Below are positions 52,770 to 61,671 of a stretch of 64,000 bases of DNA, one piece after another. The DNA is from Prochlorococcus sp. AG-409-K04 (lineage in GTDB: Bacteria > Cyanobacteriota > Cyanobacteriia > PCC-6307 > Cyanobiaceae). Position 1 is the stretch's first letter. The number at the start of each line of letters is the position of its first letter. The DNA is taken from the NCBI GenBank assembly GCA_003215555.1, contig QCKE01000005.1, positions 1 through 64,000 of the forward strand. Direction: 5' to 3'. The notes under the pieces are model-generated. The model had not been told where the DNA came from. It saw only the letters and a list, made by a program, of their open reading frames with translations, and did not search any database. A program made the position numbers and the translations under genes.

Positions 52770-53018
52770 ATGAAATCTATTCGGATTTTTTCATTAGTTG
52801 CTGCTTCAGCAATATCCTCTGTTTTCATTGGCCTTAATACTGAAGCCGTTGCCAGGGGAATGCAAACAGAACTCTTGCCTAATGCTTCTGGTGAATTTGT
52901 AGCTTGTGGCGGCGGCGGCGGCGGCGGCGGCGGCAATGGAGCAAAGAAGAGAGCTGCGAAGAAAGCGATGCAAGAAGAACTTAAAAAAATGATTGAGGAA
53001 ATGAAGAACAAGGACTAA
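52770..53018 (+). CDS. Secreted small glycine-repeat protein
   Basis: 82 residues: signal peptide (IFSLVAASAISSVFIGLNTEA), a short mature part with one cysteine, a run of nine glycines (47-55), and a basic/acidic helix (KKAMQEELKKMIEEMKN). The nine glycines are coded by nine pure GGC codons at 52908-52934, remarkable in DNA this AT-rich. A hairpin terminator follows. I do not recognise a family; a short helix tethered by a flexible hinge is what the sequence shows. Confidence 0.65.
   Translation: MKSIRIFSLVAASAISSVFIGLNTEAVARGMQTELLPNASGEFVACGGGGGGGGGNGAKKRAAKKAMQEELKKMIEEMKNKD
52908..52934 (+). repeat. GGC trinucleotide repeat, nine copies
   Basis: Nine uninterrupted GGC units in frame, coding nine glycines in the secreted peptide. 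It is by far the GC-richest 27 bases in the region. Repeat number could change by slippage without breaking the frame, altering only the linker length. Confidence 0.95.
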
Positions 53019-53079: not shown

Positions 53080-53925
53080 TTTATATAGGCAAATTTTCCT
53101 ATATGTATTTTGGGTTATTTCATATCCTAATAATCTCGACTTTTTTAGATCTTTGCAAGAATTTTTTAATTTATTTAATTTAAAATTGTTCTTTGATCTA
53201 TTATAAAAAAACTTTCCATTATTCGAACTATATTTAATGGCTATATTGAAATTCTTATTGGCTTCAGGATAATTACCTAAATGATAATTAACTACTCCTT
53301 TATTATTATGCACCTGTGCGCTATTTGGTCTAATTTTTAGCGCATTAACATACGCAATTATAGCTTGCTTAAATTCTTTTTGTATAAAATATATTTGTCC
53401 CATATTATAATAGCTGTGAAATTCTTTTGGATTTATTTTTACTACCTTTTTAAAATCTTTTAGTGCCATTTGATAGTTATTTAACCGTAGATAATTATCT
53501 CCTCTATAAAACAAGTATTTTTCATTATTTCTGTCAAGTAGAATTGCTTTACTATATTCTATTATAGCTCTTCTGTAATCTCCTAATTCTTCATAGGCTA
53601 GACCTTTTTGAAACAAATACTGTTTGTTTCTAGGATCTTTTTTTAGAACTATATTAAGATCACTGATGGATTTCGTATAATTTTCTAGATATAAGTTAAT
53701 CCTAGATCTTATGAAAAGTTGTTCTTTATTTTCTGGTAGTTTTTCTATGTTTTGATTTAGTAAATTCAGGTTATCGTCAAGAGAATTTGTAAGCTTGTCT
53801 GATTGGTATTTATTTGTCGGCTCTATTGAGCAAGAACTTAATGGTATAAGTATTATTGAGATTAAAGGTATTAACTTATATATGAATGTACTTTGTCGTT
53901 TAAATATATAATTTCTATCAGACAT
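53077..53925 (-). CDS. TPR-repeat lipoprotein
   Basis: 282 residues. An N-terminal export signal ends in a lipobox (IPLSSC, Cys 32), so a lipid-anchored periplasmic protein is expected. From about residue 60 there are six tetratricopeptide-like repeats (for example GLAYEELGDYRRAIIEYSKA and NMGQIYFIQKEFKQAIIAYV). TPRs mediate protein-protein contacts; the partner is unknown. It overlaps the DoxX-like gene by one base, suggesting coupling. Confidence 0.8.
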   Translation of the reverse strand: MSDRNYIFKRQSTFIYKLIPLISIILIPLSSCSIEPTNKYQSDKLTNSLDDNLNLLNQNIEKLPENKEQLFIRSRINLYLENYTKSISDLNIVLKKDPRNKQYLFQKGLAYEELGDYRRAIIEYSKAILLDRNNEKYLFYRGDNYLRLNNYQMALKDFKKVVKINPKEFHSYYNMGQIYFIQKEFKQAIIAYVNALKIRPNSAQVHNNKGVVNYHLGNYPEANKNFNIAIKYSSNNGKFFYNRSKNNFKLNKLKNSCKDLKKSRLLGYEITQNTYRKICLYK

Positions 53926-54290
53926 TATTTATCTGATCTAGTTATTAATAACAACAAACCACCTATAAGTCCCAGATTAGTTACTACACTTTTCATATCG
54001 AAAGGATATACATGAAAAATAATAGTTGCAGGTATAATAAATAATAAAATTATAGCTGCTCCTATTCGTTCATAAGTTCTCGAAATTATTAGTACAGGTC
54101 CTACTATTAGGAGTATTACAGATATGATGTGTAATAAAATTGATATTGGTTCGGAAAAACCTTTACTAGCTATGTAATCAACTACATTTGTGAAATTTGT
54201 TAATTTAAATCTCAGTGCGTTTACAAAAATTGCTATTAAAGATACCCTCGCAAAAAAATCAACTATTTTGTTTGTATTTTTTAACTCCAT
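53925..54290 (-). CDS. DoxX-like membrane protein, copy 1
   Basis: 121 residues from ATG 54290; the frame extends to 54362. Four hydrophobic helices. The order NKIVDFFARV ... KLTNFTNVVDYIASKGFS ... ERIGAAIILLFIIPATIIFH ... NLGLIGGLLLL is DoxX-like and matches the divergent gene at 55466-55897 block by block, so the two are paralogs. DoxX proteins are linked to redox stress in some bacteria but have no settled function. Confidence 0.75.
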   Translation of the reverse strand: MELKNTNKIVDFFARVSLIAIFVNALRFKLTNFTNVVDYIASKGFSEPISILLHIISVILLIVGPVLIISRTYERIGAAIILLFIIPATIIFHVYPFDMKSVVTNLGLIGGLLLLITRSDK

Positions 54291-54429
54291 AGTTTTGTTG
54301 TTTATATAAAATCCTTTGTCAATAGAATCCTTATCAATTCTAATTAATGTATGACCGTACATCAGTATTTATATAGATTTATCAAAGTTCAGTCTTATTC
54401 AATTCAGTATTTCAAATTTTGTTTTAGAA

Positions 54430-55011: not shown

Positions 55012-55224
55012 TTACTCTTCATTTAGTTGAACCCATCCCATTGTCCATTTTGCATATGTTTTTAATTCTGTCCAGCTTAATTTGATCTTTATATTGTTGT
55101 TGCGTATGGCTGTAAGCATAACCCACCTTTCTTCTCCTTTGCCACCATATTCAATCACTTCAAAGTGTCTAAAACCCTCTATAGCTTCATTTGATGTCCA
55201 AGCTTTGTTAGGAGGCCACCTCAT
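55012..55224 (-). CDS. TIGR02450 family Trp-rich small protein
   Basis: 70 residues with five tryptophans: WPPNKAWTSN, RHFEVIEY, RWVMLTAI and the C-terminal SWTELKTYAKWTMGWVQL. This pattern matches the TIGR02450 family (short Trp-containing proteins in marine cyanobacteria and proteobacteria), function unknown. No signal peptide. Monocistronic. Confidence 0.75.
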   Translation of the reverse strand: MRWPPNKAWTSNEAIEGFRHFEVIEYGGKGEERWVMLTAIRNNNIKIKLSWTELKTYAKWTMGWVQLNEE

Positions 55225-55465: not shown

Positions 55466-55897
55466 ATGATGATTTTTAGTAATAAGACAGTTGATTTTAT
55501 TGGTAGGTTTTTACTAAGTATTACCTTTTTGGTAGCAATACCTCCAAAGATCACAAAATTTTCATTAGTTCTAGAAGCTATTATTTCTAGAGGTATTTCG
55601 AGAGAATATGCTTACTACTTGCTTGTTATTGCTATTTGCTGTTTATCCATTGGAAGCGTTGGTTTGATTCTTGGTTTGCGTAGAATAGGATCATCCTTTT
55701 TATTACTGTTTCTAGTACCAACTACTTTTATATTTCATTTAAGACCATTTGAGTCACAGGCATTTTTCATGAACATAGGCTTAATAGGAGCGTTGTTATT
55801 AGTATTTAATTCAGATAGGGATAGAACTTCAAACTTAAGGAGGGTCATGAAGCTGGTCATAAATTACCTAAGAACCTTTTTAGAACGATTAGAGTGA
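55466..55897 (+). CDS. DoxX-like membrane protein, copy 2
   Basis: 143 residues (a second Met codon follows the first). Four hydrophobic helices with NKTVDFIGRF, KITKFSLVLEAIISRGIS, RRIGSSFLLLFLVPTTFIFH and NIGLIGALLLV, each matching copy 1 (53925-54290). It has an extra basic tail of about 25 residues (RDRTSNLRRVMKLVINYL). It is transcribed away from copy 1, with the candidate ncRNA and the Trp-rich gene between. Confidence 0.75.
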   Translation: MMIFSNKTVDFIGRFLLSITFLVAIPPKITKFSLVLEAIISRGISREYAYYLLVIAICCLSIGSVGLILGLRRIGSSFLLLFLVPTTFIFHLRPFESQAFFMNIGLIGALLLVFNSDRDRTSNLRRVMKLVINYLRTFLERLE

Positions 55898-57445: not shown

Positions 57446-57685
57446 ATGAAAAAAGTAAAATATGCTGAAGTGGCTCCCTGGGATGGAGGCCCTAACCAAA
57501 CTCACACAAATGATCCAGAGTGGATTATGCAGAAAGGAATTATTGAAGTTAGTTTCAGCAGAAATCAATTAGATCATAATTATTTTCACATAAGAAGAGG
57601 TGAAAAAGAAGAACAAGTATATACATTTCAAGCACGTTATCTCTATCAAGAGTTGTTAGATAAAGGATTTCGTTTAAAAGAATAG
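57446..57685 (+). CDS. Hypothetical soluble protein, 79 residues
   Basis: From ATG 57446 (MKKVKYAEVAPWDGGPNQTH); the frame reaches 57413 but without support. It is rich in His, Gln and aromatic residues (DHNYFHIRRGEKEEQVYTF) and ends FRLKE. I do not recognise a family. It is convergent with mfd, leaving the long spacer that holds the DnaA-box cluster. Confidence 0.5.
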   Translation: MKKVKYAEVAPWDGGPNQTHTNDPEWIMQKGIIEVSFSRNQLDHNYFHIRRGEKEEQVYTFQARYLYQELLDKGFRLKE

Positions 57686-57763
57686 TCTCTATTTAATGTT
57701 TCTATGTATACAACCTCGTAATTGATATTAACCTTATTAATTGTTGTTTTATTTAATTACACC

Positions 57764-58089
57764 TTATACACAAAAAACTTTTTAGAAACAAAATATTATT
57801 TCCTAATAACATTATCAGCAGTTTAGAACTAGAATAACTAGATATTCTGATTAATCTAGAAAGTCATCGTTTTTCCACATTTCCAAGGTTTGCTAACAAA
57901 AAATATATTCTGTAGCAGCAATTTATACACATTCCCTGCTTTCTGAGGAACTTTATCAATTCTTTAGATCCATTGTTAATAAAGGGTTTATTGGTGGTAG
58001 AAATATGTTTGTAATTTATCCACTTATGTCTTTGGCCTATTACAACAACATGCCCAAAAAAAATATGCAGATTGTGGAAAAGTGGAAAA
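57764..58089. other. Cluster of six DnaA-box-like 9-mers
   Basis: In one spacer between convergent genes: TTATACACA at 57764-57772 and again at 57923-57931; TTTTCCACA at 57871-57879; TTATCCACT at 58016-58024; and on the minus strand TTTTCCACA (58073-58081) directly joined to TTTTCCACT (58081-58089). TTATNCACA is the classic DnaA box and TTTTCCACA a form used in cyanobacteria. The flanks are AT-rich. Function could be origin, DnaA titration or a control site. Confidence 0.65.
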
Positions 58090-58161
58090 CTAATCTTTTC
58101 TGCTCCGAATCTCAGCACTCAAGTGCCCAGAAATAGCTTTGTCAATTTGTGTAAGTGATTG

Positions 58162-61100
58162 TTACGGAGATAATTTGTTTGAGAGCTTTTTACCTATTTC
58201 TTTTTCTATATTTGGAAGTTTTGCAGACATTTTGTCTAGCCATTCGATGATTGTTTCTATCTGATGCTCAATTGCTAGTGTTCCTAGCCCTCTTAATGTA
58301 ATTTCTGAGATTGCTTGTCCTTTTTTAAAAATCACCCTTCCTTGCAGATGCTTATCTAGACCCTCTACCAAACTTTTAAAACTAGCATGATTCATTGATG
58401 TATCAAGAACTATATTAGGTTTTATACTTCTAACTCTGGATATCCCCAGTTTTTTTGTTCTTAATTTGAGTTTCATTAGTAGCAATAATGCTTCCACTGG
58501 CTTAGGCAATGCCCCAAATCTATCTATCCATGTTGTTGTTAAATCTATTAATTGCTCTGAAGTTTCGCATTCCGATGCTTCTTTATAAGCATTTATTTTC
58601 TCTTCATTCTCACTAATCCATGTACCAGGAATAAAAGCTGTGATTGGAAGATCTATTTTTGTTTCCTCTACCGTTGGTATGGATTGCCCTTGAATATCTG
58701 CTATTGATTCATGCAGTATTTCCATATATAAATCAAAACCTATAGCTTCCATTTGTCCACTTTGCTCAACACCTATTAAGTTTCCTACACCTCTTATTTC
58801 CATATCTCTCATTGCTAATTGATAGCCGCTTCCTAGTTCACTAAATTCTTTAATTGCCTTTAATCTCTGCCTTGCTTTTTCATTAATCTTTAATTCAGGA
58901 GGATAAAATAGCCATGCATGTGCTTGTATTCCGCTTCTCCCAACACGACCTCTTAATTGATACAGTTGTGATAATCCAAATAAATGTGCATTTTCAATCA
59001 AGATTGTATTAACTCTAGGAATATCTAAACCACTTTCTATAATAGTAGTACATATCATTAGATCTGCTTCCCCCTCATTGAAGGCGATCATAGCTATTTC
59101 CAGTTCACCTTCATCCATTTGTCCATGAGCTATTATTATATTTATTTTGGGCACCATACTTTGTATTTTTTGAGTTACTTTCTCTATACCTTCTATTTTT
59201 GGAACAACGTAAAATACCTGACCTCCCCTTCCAATTTCCTGACAAATAGCACTTCTTATAGTTTCATCATCTATAGGAGCTAAATGTGTTTTAATAGCTC
59301 TTCTTTGCGGTGGAGGGGTTGTTATTAAGCTCATTTCTCTAACACCTGATAAGCTCATATACAATGTCCTAGGTATTGGAGTGGCTGTGAGAGTAATTAC
59401 ATCAATATGTTTCTTTAGTGACTTTATCTTTTCTTTCTGAGTTACACCAAACCTCTGTTCCTCATCTATCACAAGAAGTCCTAGGTCTTTATATTTTATT
59501 TTATTTGAAAGTAGCAAATGTGTACCAATAATTGCATCTATTTTTCCTTTTTCTAATTCGTTTATTATTTCCTTTCTTTCCTTAAGTGATTTAAATCTAT
59601 TAAGTAGTGATACTTTAATTGGATAGGGAGCGAAACGATCTGAAAGCGTCCTCCAGTGTTGTTGAGCCAATACAGTAGTTGGTGCAAGTACAGCAACTTG
59701 TTTTCCAGCAGTAATTGCTTTAAATAAGGCTCTGACAGCTACTTCGGTTTTACCAAAGCCTACATCTCCGCATATCAGCCTATCCATTGGAATATGGTTT
59801 TCCATATCCTTTTTAATTTCGGTAACGGCTTTTACCTGATCTGGTGTTGCTACGTATGGAAACGAATCTTCCAATTCGCTTTGCCATGGTCCGTCCTCGG
59901 GAAAACAGAATCCTTGAGAATTTGATCTTTCTGCATACAATTTGATTAAATCAATGGCAACTTTATTAATAGCTTTTTTTGCTTTTTGCTTTGTTATTTT
60001 CCATGTATTACCTCCTAATTTACTTATTTTAGGTGAATTATTATTTGAACTTCTATATCTACCAAGAGAAGATAATTGATCTGCAGATACTCTTAATGTA
60101 CCATCTAAATATTGAACTAATAGATAATCTCGTGCTTCTTTATTTATGAAAAACTTTTCAATTCTAAGAAATTTACCAACCCCATGATTTCTATGCACAA
60201 CATAATCTCCAGGATTTATTTTATTTAATTCAACTTTATTGCTCGACGAAACATTTCTCCTTCTTATATATCCAGTTGATGAAATTAATTGTTGTCCAAA
60301 TAATTCTTTATCTGTTAGTAAAACTATTTTCCATTGTGGTAAATCAAGACCTTCAATATCAATGTTTCCTGCTAACTTTAGAGCTACTGGTATTTTTTGC
60401 TTAATTAGATTTAAAATACTAATTAAGTCGTGATTGTTAGGAATGAAGTGTGTACTACAATCGTGTTCTTGGAGTAGAGCTTTTGCTCTACTTGGTTGCG
60501 CGGATAAAATCCATATAGAATAATCTTCTTTTGTATACGTCTTTATTAATTCACTGATTTTACTAAATTGATTGGGATAAGTGGAAACGATTTTAGAAGA
60601 TAAATTAAAGTTGTTCGTTGTATTATCTTGTTTATCACTGTATGTTTCTATTGTTACAAATTTGCTTAAACATTCATAAATAATTTTACTATCTCTAATT
60701 GGTTGTTGTAGTTCAATTTCTACATTTTTCTTTTTTAGTATATTCTCCATTTCACTATATGTATTATGTAGGTGATACAACCAATTATCTGTATGTTCTT
60801 TGCATTGATTTTTTTCATCAAGTATTACTAACGTATTAGTATTTAAAAAATCTAAAATAGAACTTTGATATTTAGATGATAATAATGCTCGCTCTAATAT
60901 CATATTTTCTATTTCATATCCTTTGTTAAGATTAGTATTTTTCTTTTTATAATTTTCTAAAGATTCCGTTAATAGATAATTAAAGCTTATAGGTGTTATA
61001 ACTATTTCATCTATTTCGTCCAGTGATCTCTGCGTTATTGGATCATACTCTCTTAACTTATCTACCTTGTCTCCAAATAACTCTATCCTTATTGGAAGTT

Positions 61101-61671
61101 CATTGTTTACTGCATAAATATCTATAATGTCTCCTCTCCTACTCCAATACCCTTCTTGATTTGTTGTCGCATTTCTTTCATAACCAATCTCAGTTAGTTT
61201 ATGATTAATATTATCAACATTCAAATCTTGTCCTCTCTTAATTAATAAGCTATTTTCGTTAACTACTTTGGGGTGAGGTAAATGATTGAAAAGACTTCTT
61301 TCTGTACATATTACGGCAAAATTAATAGATTTATTACAGGCTAATTCGCTTACTATAGATAGTTGTCCCCAGCTAATTTCAGTTGATTGATTAATGCTTT
61401 CGTAAGGAGTTACTTCACTACCTGGATATAAAAAAGTTTTATCCCAGCCCATTAATTGTAGTTGACTATGCCATCTAGTAGCTTCTTCAAGCGTAGGAAG
61501 TATAACAAGAAGATTTGTATTTGCACTCTTAGCTAAACCTGCACTTATTAATGTTTTAGCTGTTCTACATCCTCCTTGTATTGTTAATTTTTGATCTCTG
61601 GTTGCTCTATCGAGAATCTCGTCTATTAATGTTGTATTCTGTAGTCTAGATAGCAATGAATTAAGCGTCAT
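58162..61671 (-). CDS. mfd: Mfd, transcription-repair coupling factor
   Basis: Removes RNA polymerase stalled at lesions and recruits UvrA. 1169 residues, the usual length. UvrB-like N-terminal half; RNA polymerase interaction domain with GDYVVHRNHGVGKFLRIEKF; then translocase motifs CGDVGFGKTEVAVRALF (Walker A), VIDEEQRFGV (DEEQ box), TATPIPRTLYMSLSG and QLRGRVGRSG (motif VI). The C-terminal D7 domain is shortened of nothing obvious. Its 3' end borders the DnaA-box cluster. Confidence 0.97.
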   Translation of the reverse strand: MTLNSLLSRLQNTTLIDEILDRATRDQKLTIQGGCRTAKTLISAGLAKSANTNLLVILPTLEEATRWHSQLQLMGWDKTFLYPGSEVTPYESINQSTEISWGQLSIVSELACNKSINFAVICTERSLFNHLPHPKVVNENSLLIKRGQDLNVDNINHKLTEIGYERNATTNQEGYWSRRGDIIDIYAVNNELPIRIELFGDKVDKLREYDPITQRSLDEIDEIVITPISFNYLLTESLENYKKKNTNLNKGYEIENMILERALLSSKYQSSILDFLNTNTLVILDEKNQCKEHTDNWLYHLHNTYSEMENILKKKNVEIELQQPIRDSKIIYECLSKFVTIETYSDKQDNTTNNFNLSSKIVSTYPNQFSKISELIKTYTKEDYSIWILSAQPSRAKALLQEHDCSTHFIPNNHDLISILNLIKQKIPVALKLAGNIDIEGLDLPQWKIVLLTDKELFGQQLISSTGYIRRRNVSSSNKVELNKINPGDYVVHRNHGVGKFLRIEKFFINKEARDYLLVQYLDGTLRVSADQLSSLGRYRSSNNNSPKISKLGGNTWKITKQKAKKAINKVAIDLIKLYAERSNSQGFCFPEDGPWQSELEDSFPYVATPDQVKAVTEIKKDMENHIPMDRLICGDVGFGKTEVAVRALFKAITAGKQVAVLAPTTVLAQQHWRTLSDRFAPYPIKVSLLNRFKSLKERKEIINELEKGKIDAIIGTHLLLSNKIKYKDLGLLVIDEEQRFGVTQKEKIKSLKKHIDVITLTATPIPRTLYMSLSGVREMSLITTPPPQRRAIKTHLAPIDDETIRSAICQEIGRGGQVFYVVPKIEGIEKVTQKIQSMVPKINIIIAHGQMDEGELEIAMIAFNEGEADLMICTTIIESGLDIPRVNTILIENAHLFGLSQLYQLRGRVGRSGIQAHAWLFYPPELKINEKARQRLKAIKEFSELGSGYQLAMRDMEIRGVGNLIGVEQSGQMEAIGFDLYMEILHESIADIQGQSIPTVEETKIDLPITAFIPGTWISENEEKINAYKEASECETSEQLIDLTTTWIDRFGALPKPVEALLLLMKLKLRTKKLGISRVRSIKPNIVLDTSMNHASFKSLVEGLDKHLQGRVIFKKGQAISEITLRGLGTLAIEHQIETIIEWLDKMSAKLPNIEKEIGKKLSNKLSP

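Follow-up and report, generated by a model that had tools for sequence, protein, structure and literature searches.

A conserved DnaA-box element, a candidate DnaA control site outside the origin, in Prochlorococcus sp. AG-409-K04 and its relatives

The spacer downstream of mfd in the low-light Prochlorococcus sp. AG-409-K04 contains a 219 bp arrangement of DnaA boxes which, read from its sequence, we regard with moderate confidence as an orphan DnaA-binding element of chromosomal control that is neither a gene nor an origin of replication. It is because the box set is kept once per genome, though its neighbours change, that a DnaA control site is the probable reading and an origin is not. The window, by which we mean the whole 64,000 nt stretch that was analysed, lies within a contig of 85,053 bp (C5) of a genome that is 75% complete (1.41 Mb in 38 contigs). 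The initial annotation had drawn attention to six 9-mers that match or nearly match DnaA boxes within 326 bp, and all six were found, between 57764 and 58089, in a spacer of 476 bp that does indeed lie between the 3' ends of two convergent genes. The features of the region are as follows.

57446..57685, (+): small flanking gene, encoding a 79-aa protein (PWDGG...), 3' end towards the element
57686-58161: spacer, 476 bp, between gene 3' ends
57764..57772, (+): DnaA box TTATACACA, outside the conserved element and absent from the orthologous spacers of relatives
57871..58089, (-): the conserved element as a whole, with a length of 219 bp in Prochlorococcus sp. AG-409-K04
57871..57879, (+): block D, an inverted DnaA box TTTTCCACA that faces block A about 200 bp off, with 9/9 columns invariant
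57923..57931, (+): DnaA box TTATACACA, likewise absent from the orthologous spacers of relatives
58010..58027, (-): block B, ATAAGTGGATAAATTACA, longer than a single DnaA box and placed between blocks A and D
58016-58024, (+): weak DnaA box TTATCCACT within block B
58063..58068, (-): GCATAT block just after block A, its CA core invariant in the alignment of elements
58073..58089, (-): block A, the 17-mer TTTTCCACWTTTCCACA, made of tandem DnaA boxes TTTTCCACT and TTTTCCACA with a 1-base overlap (TTTTCCACA at 58073 and TTTTCCACT at 58081 on the minus strand)
58162..61671, (-): flanking gene mfd, 3' end towards the element

Conservation and distribution of the element

When the DNA downstream of mfd was compared among relatives, whose Mfd is only 63-66% identical, the boxes were found to be kept; their absence from orthologous spacers is what the initial annotation had named as evidence against its reading. 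All nine genomes of the genus (g1) that hold the 3' end of mfd have the element. In the eight with a complete mfd, this genome included, TTTTCCACWTTTCCACA is followed by an inverted TTTTCCACA about 200 bp from it, with ATAAGTGG about 40 bp after TTTTCCACWTTTCCACA in most of them, and in the ninth, G178, the element adjoins an mfd that is cut by the contig end. The other five genomes of the genus, which are 54-82% complete, gave no good match to mfd and no element. Both TTATACACA boxes were sought in the orthologous spacers and not found, therefore the conserved core consists of four boxes at most and the TTATACACA pair is likely to have arisen by chance.

Column statistics were taken from 16 elements of four genera, with the blocks picked after the alignment had been viewed. 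Invariant columns make up 28 of the 36 in the three blocks against 6 of the 177 outside them (Fisher p 4e-22), and pairwise identity is 0.97 in block A, 0.86 in block B and 1.00 in block D, compared with 0.43 elsewhere. Within block B GTGG is invariant and most of AAGTGG..ATTAC is nearly so (16-17 aligned elements from four genera). The length from block A to block D is 216-221 bp in 15 of the 16 elements and 207 bp in one, whilst every copy has block D in the opposite orientation to block A and the inner sequence is not kept. The pattern is that looked for in a control site, where boxes and spacing are conserved and the spacer sequence is free.

It had been claimed that such a group of boxes would be very unlikely to arise by chance, and simulation bears this out. 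Of 150 windows of 64 kb drawn from a first-order Markov model, each scored for its densest 340 bp, none held more than three matches to TTWTMCACW or two to TTWTMCACA, as against six and four here. The genome as a whole (1.41 Mb, 75% complete) has 67 TTWTMCACA sites, no more than the 74 of the reversed control, so DnaA boxes are not common genome-wide; the spacer accounts for four of the 67, as against two at the next densest place, thus neither the simulations nor the genome offer a similar density elsewhere. The lack of box enrichment across the genome would be in keeping with a chance cluster in AT-rich DNA, yet we consider such a cluster extremely improbable, as 45 genomes from four genera keep the element, some of them at other loci, and simulations never reach the observed density. 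For blocks A and D a chance origin is refuted by conservation and simulations together, and the spacer can be said to hold a DnaA-box cluster in non-coding DNA that is above chance, as would be expected of a control site.

Across 400 genomes of the family the block A 17-mer is found once per genome in 47, with no match for the reversed control; in G040, one of the 47, the match is part of the dnaN-side region. A search for the inverted core pair at 172-202 bp gives an almost identical set of genomes and, in other genera, a small number of isolated matches. A model of blocks A and B that uses sequence only (R1) finds the element in 45 of the 400 at E<=2e-12, at a single place per genome. The match next in rank stands at 2.9e-4, and the 45 span four genera and stand beside differing genes. 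In the NATL-type genus (g56) the element is present in 34 of 41 genomes, including all 20 that are at least 87% complete, these clade counts resting partly on incomplete single-cell genomes. High-light Prochlorococcus (g17, which includes a MIT9301-size genome) has it in none of 68 genomes, and searches with the 17-mer and with R1 find it to be absent from the MIT9211-size genus and the Synechococcus-type genera. These absences indicate that it is dispensable in close relatives, which counts against the control-site reading. Block B has been lost in G003 and in a second site of G060 (on contig C16), in both of which blocks A and D are kept.

The position beside mfd, as first described, holds true only within g1, and in other genera the neighbours differ: the element lies downstream of lexA in g56 and near a ferredoxin gene and a Crp-type regulator gene in G060, and in G003 and G027 the genes next to it are small and unnamed. 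As neighbours change whilst sequence and length are kept, it would seem unlikely that the element regulates one adjacent gene.

With regard to the other flanking gene, the 79-aa protein was searched against Pfam and NCBIfam with no match, and a near-identical homologue adjoins the element in the SS120-size genome G010. Small proteins with PWDGG... or PWDYG..., seemingly of one family, are found near the element in g1 and in G003 (57446-57685; L186:8614-8862), and a similar protein lies near a second site of the block D type in g56 (L413:126-392), which may be coincidence. Elsewhere in the window a small ORF (52770-53018, (+)) has a run of nine glycines, a possible signal peptide and no NCBIfam match, and two small membrane proteins that are similar by eye are encoded on opposite strands (53925-54362 and 55466-55897), flanking the gene for a TIGR02450 Trp-rich protein (55012-55224).

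Origin, RNA and coding readings of the spacer

The initial annotation had also entertained the possibility that the cluster is the actual origin or a secondary one, neither of which is borne out. It was right that dnaN is not in the window; dnaN is on contig C13 of the same genome, together with a module of boxes and DnaA-trios. Every genome of the genus that has dnaN carries degenerate boxes upstream of it followed by CTACTACTACT or CTACTACTACG, the module of Prochlorococcus sp. AG-409-K04 being ATTTCAACAATTTCCACAGCCCCTACTACTACTG, and there are three to four CTA units upstream of dnaN in 10/10 of these genomes. A layout of box, spacer and DnaA-trio is that of the basal unwinding system (PMC8287927). 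An origin of this type was defined as one or more DnaA boxes followed by at least three DnaA-trios within 16 nt, and a search for a run of trios in 38 elements gave only zero to one strict CTA units after a box; the element has neither trios after a box nor a position at dnaN or at the origin skew switch. As an observation on the dnaN locus itself, Prochlorococcus oriC appears about 100-300 bp upstream of dnaN as box-box-spacer-CTACTACTACT, a clear trio module in which most boxes are degenerate.

The position of the element also varies. Measured in the direction of dnaN, it lies at 52.6% and 47.1% of the chromosome from this gene in the two complete genomes of the genus (the SS120-size G010, of 1,751,080 bp, and G065 respectively), at 72.4-73.7% in five g56 genomes and at 33.7% in G003. 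The T/A skew of the SS120-size genome changes sign between 827 and 908 kb, on the terminus side, and the element is close by at about 920.4-920.6 kb; in the NATL2A-size genome its place is about 1,333.7-1,333.9 kb. Within the window GC skew switches near 57 kb and AT skew does not, therefore the GC-skew switch probably follows gene strand. Whilst a box cluster in a spacer between convergent genes might be expected of a primary or secondary origin, we consider this reading very unlikely given the boxes and trios at dnaN, the lack of a trio in the element, its varying place (between 34 and 74% of the way round the chromosome from dnaN, and in the SS120-size genome close to where the skew switches at the terminus), and published analyses of GC skew that put Prochlorococcus origins at dnaN (PMC2836286).

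A further reading is that the spacer encodes a non-coding RNA with ends that base-pair by way of the inverted boxes, or contains the promoter of such an RNA under DnaA control. In its favour, each arm is a perfect inverted repeat of the other, and the AG-409-K04 copy, folded as RNA, has a z of -2.57, to which the inverted boxes contribute. There is, however, no Rfam match; in the consensus fold, none of the 12 pairs in which the blocks take part shows a change on both sides, so that there is no covariation between the arms; and with the arms fixed the folding of the interior is not better than that of shuffles (mean z -0.37 for 16 elements). Promoter-like matches are at chance level and no terminator was found. 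An RNA gene or its promoter is therefore thought quite improbable, and a structured RNA, a promoter and a terminator have each been rejected on these grounds. Also rejected was a small ORF across the spacer (57864-58118, 84 aa), which has no Pfam match and whose coding sequence is not conserved.

Proteins that may read the boxes

The sequence TTTTCCACA is a cyanobacterial DnaA box that has been tested in Anabaena and Cyanothece (PMC4674748), and boxes of the element are identical to it in sequence. The DnaA encoded by this genome has the usual ...GKDHTTVMYA... segment for box binding. Among the options put forward at the outset, a titration or control site is the one that the data support best, the boxes being kept in orthologous spacers and in other genera and loci, and we infer that the element binds DnaA, brings its arms into contact and controls initiation. 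DnaA would occupy block A, at its tandem boxes, and block D, the inverted box some 200 bp distant, with a further protein perhaps on block B; the DnaA-bound arms would then form a looped complex, and this would leave less DnaA for oriC through titration or inactivation, as at datA or the DnaA-box clusters of Bacillus. Titration or inactivation of DnaA is somewhat more likely than its reactivation, the sign of the effect being a guess.

Some features sit less well with DnaA. The tandem boxes of block A have an 8-bp offset whereas E. coli DnaA prefers a gap of 2-3 bp (PMC11317965), and the effect of datA is lost in rich medium when it is moved to the E. coli terminus (PMC5742627), yet the element is near the terminus in the SS120-size genome; both count against the DnaA reading. 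In addition, block B exceeds a DnaA box in length and its match to the box is only loose in many copies, which suggests that another protein may be involved.

Boxes of the same sequence as in the element are also found at the gene encoding DUF2811. Pairs of TTTTCCACA 44-45 bp apart were found upstream of this gene in 6/6 of the Prochlorococcus genomes first examined, AG-409-K04 included (G000:C16:22840-22893; L209:2041-2094). When 900 bp on either side of 30 DUF2811 genes from the family was examined, 33 copies of TTTTCCACA lay upstream and none downstream, and the upstream boxes are present even in several genomes of 60-69% G+C. Across picocyanobacteria TTTTCCACA, often as an inverted pair, appears about 230-380 bp before the start of the DUF2811 domain (L545-L574). 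Judged by eye only, DUF2811 resembles a ribbon-helix-helix protein; searches returned no match to a DNA-binding family or to a solved structure.

A 14-mer that extends the box, TGTGGAAAAGTATC, occurs in 33 of 400 host genomes, for the most part at the element, the control giving one hit; the AG-409-K04 copy of block D is without the GTATC flank. Second sites of TGTGGAAAAGTATC that lack block A occur in NATL-type genomes (L393, L394, L410, L413 and L416, near 1500), and in g56 these lie about 600 bp upstream of genes that by eye resemble DUF2811 paralogues. It can therefore be asked whether another protein reads TTTTCCACA, for example the small DUF2811 proteins, with DnaA not the main ligand. 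The one-sided distribution of TTTTCCACA about DUF2811 genes would fit this, as would the reach of block B and of the GTATC beside block D beyond a DnaA box, and the proximity of the second D-type sites to DUF2811-like genes. On the other hand TTTTCCACA is an established DnaA box in cyanobacteria, some of the double boxes upstream of DUF2811 are 2 bp apart, which is the preference of E. coli DnaA, DUF2811 has no detectable DNA-binding family match, and the phages with a compact form of the element lack DUF2811. We consider it unlikely that a protein other than DnaA is the main reader.

The compact form is found in viral contigs with the block A 17-mer, where block A and the inverted block D are only 31 bp apart, start to start. 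These copies often share a GTATCA flank and are preceded by a TTGACA-like sequence. The annotated collection contains 113 cyanophage records that match the 51-bp query at E<=1, those inspected being T4-like Kyanoviridae, and a search for a DUF2811 homologue in phages found none. In T4-like cyanophages (Kyanoviridae) the compact element reads TTTTCCACATTTCCACA-TTCCGCAT-TGTGGAAAAGTATCA (L538:2501-2551) and lies in a conserved region among small hypothetical genes (also L295, L298, L299, L307, L330 and L346), some copies being without the first box. In another viral group blocks A and D are 81 bp apart with ATGCGGAA beside block D (L288, L303, L320). In that part of the literature on cyanophages and DnaA boxes that was covered, no report of such a site was found.

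Given the DUF2811 and phage observations an extra role for the extended motif is plausible, though they do not specify the protein that reads it. It is conceivable, and offered only tentatively, that the low-light orphan site, the boxes upstream of DUF2811 in most picocyanobacteria and a compact phage copy that could capture or divert host DnaA together make up an undescribed picocyanobacterial system of DnaA control. Chromosome replication in Prochlorococcus is closely timed to the day, yet of the usual regulators of DnaA neither seqA nor dam nor hda had a homologue identified in PCC9511, the strain studied (PMC2921402). A DnaA site that is conserved and lies outside oriC would be a first candidate for DnaA control in these highly abundant phototrophs, and a natural comparison is provided by its being present in some lineages and absent from the high-light ones. 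Furthermore the boxes common to cyanophages and the upstream regions of DUF2811 offer leads on replication control and on phage takeover.

Comparison with known DnaA-box sites

The cyanobacterial oriC at dnaN has the same TTTTCCACA boxes and tandem pairs as the element, to the extent that G040 has the identical 17-mer in its dnaN-side region; it differs in having the trios CTACTACTACT and in adjoining dnaN, neither of which is true of the element. Known sites outside oriC that control the amount or nucleotide state of DnaA include datA, DARS1 and DARS2 (PMC5742627, PMC4585315). In E. coli datA and DARS, as in the element, boxes and spacings are conserved whilst the spacers vary. Like the element, E. 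coli datA is a non-coding intergenic cluster of DnaA boxes without an unwinding element, and the minimal datA is 262 bp (PMC5742627) compared with 219 bp here. The essential boxes of datA all point in one direction, an IHF site is needed and the locus is near oriC, whereas the distal box of the element is inverted and the element is far from oriC.

In these last respects the element recalls DARS1 and DARS2, which have two boxes one way and one the other, away from oriC and with free intervening sequence (PMC4585315, PMC5742627). Were it a site of that kind, DnaA-ADP would assemble on it and swap its nucleotide, and initiation potential would be raised and not lowered. This is an alternative of rather low probability: the orientation of the boxes (PMC5742627) and the distance from oriC (34-74% of the chromosome) are similar to those of DARS sites, but the DARS core has a compact fixed spacing from which that of the element, with its opposite box about 200 bp away, is quite different.

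A control site that lowers initiation has further parallels in the box clusters of Bacillus subtilis and Streptomyces, where, according to the works cited in PMC5742627, extra boxes away from the unwinding module restrain initiation. The element differs from those of B. subtilis in being one single element, restricted to certain lineages and far from oriC. The B. subtilis DnaA-box clusters are several and close to oriC. The orientation pattern of the element recalls the DARS core and its length recalls datA, so that it has the full set of features of neither class, and the best reading of its sequence is of an element that would work like datA, DARS or the DnaA-box clusters.
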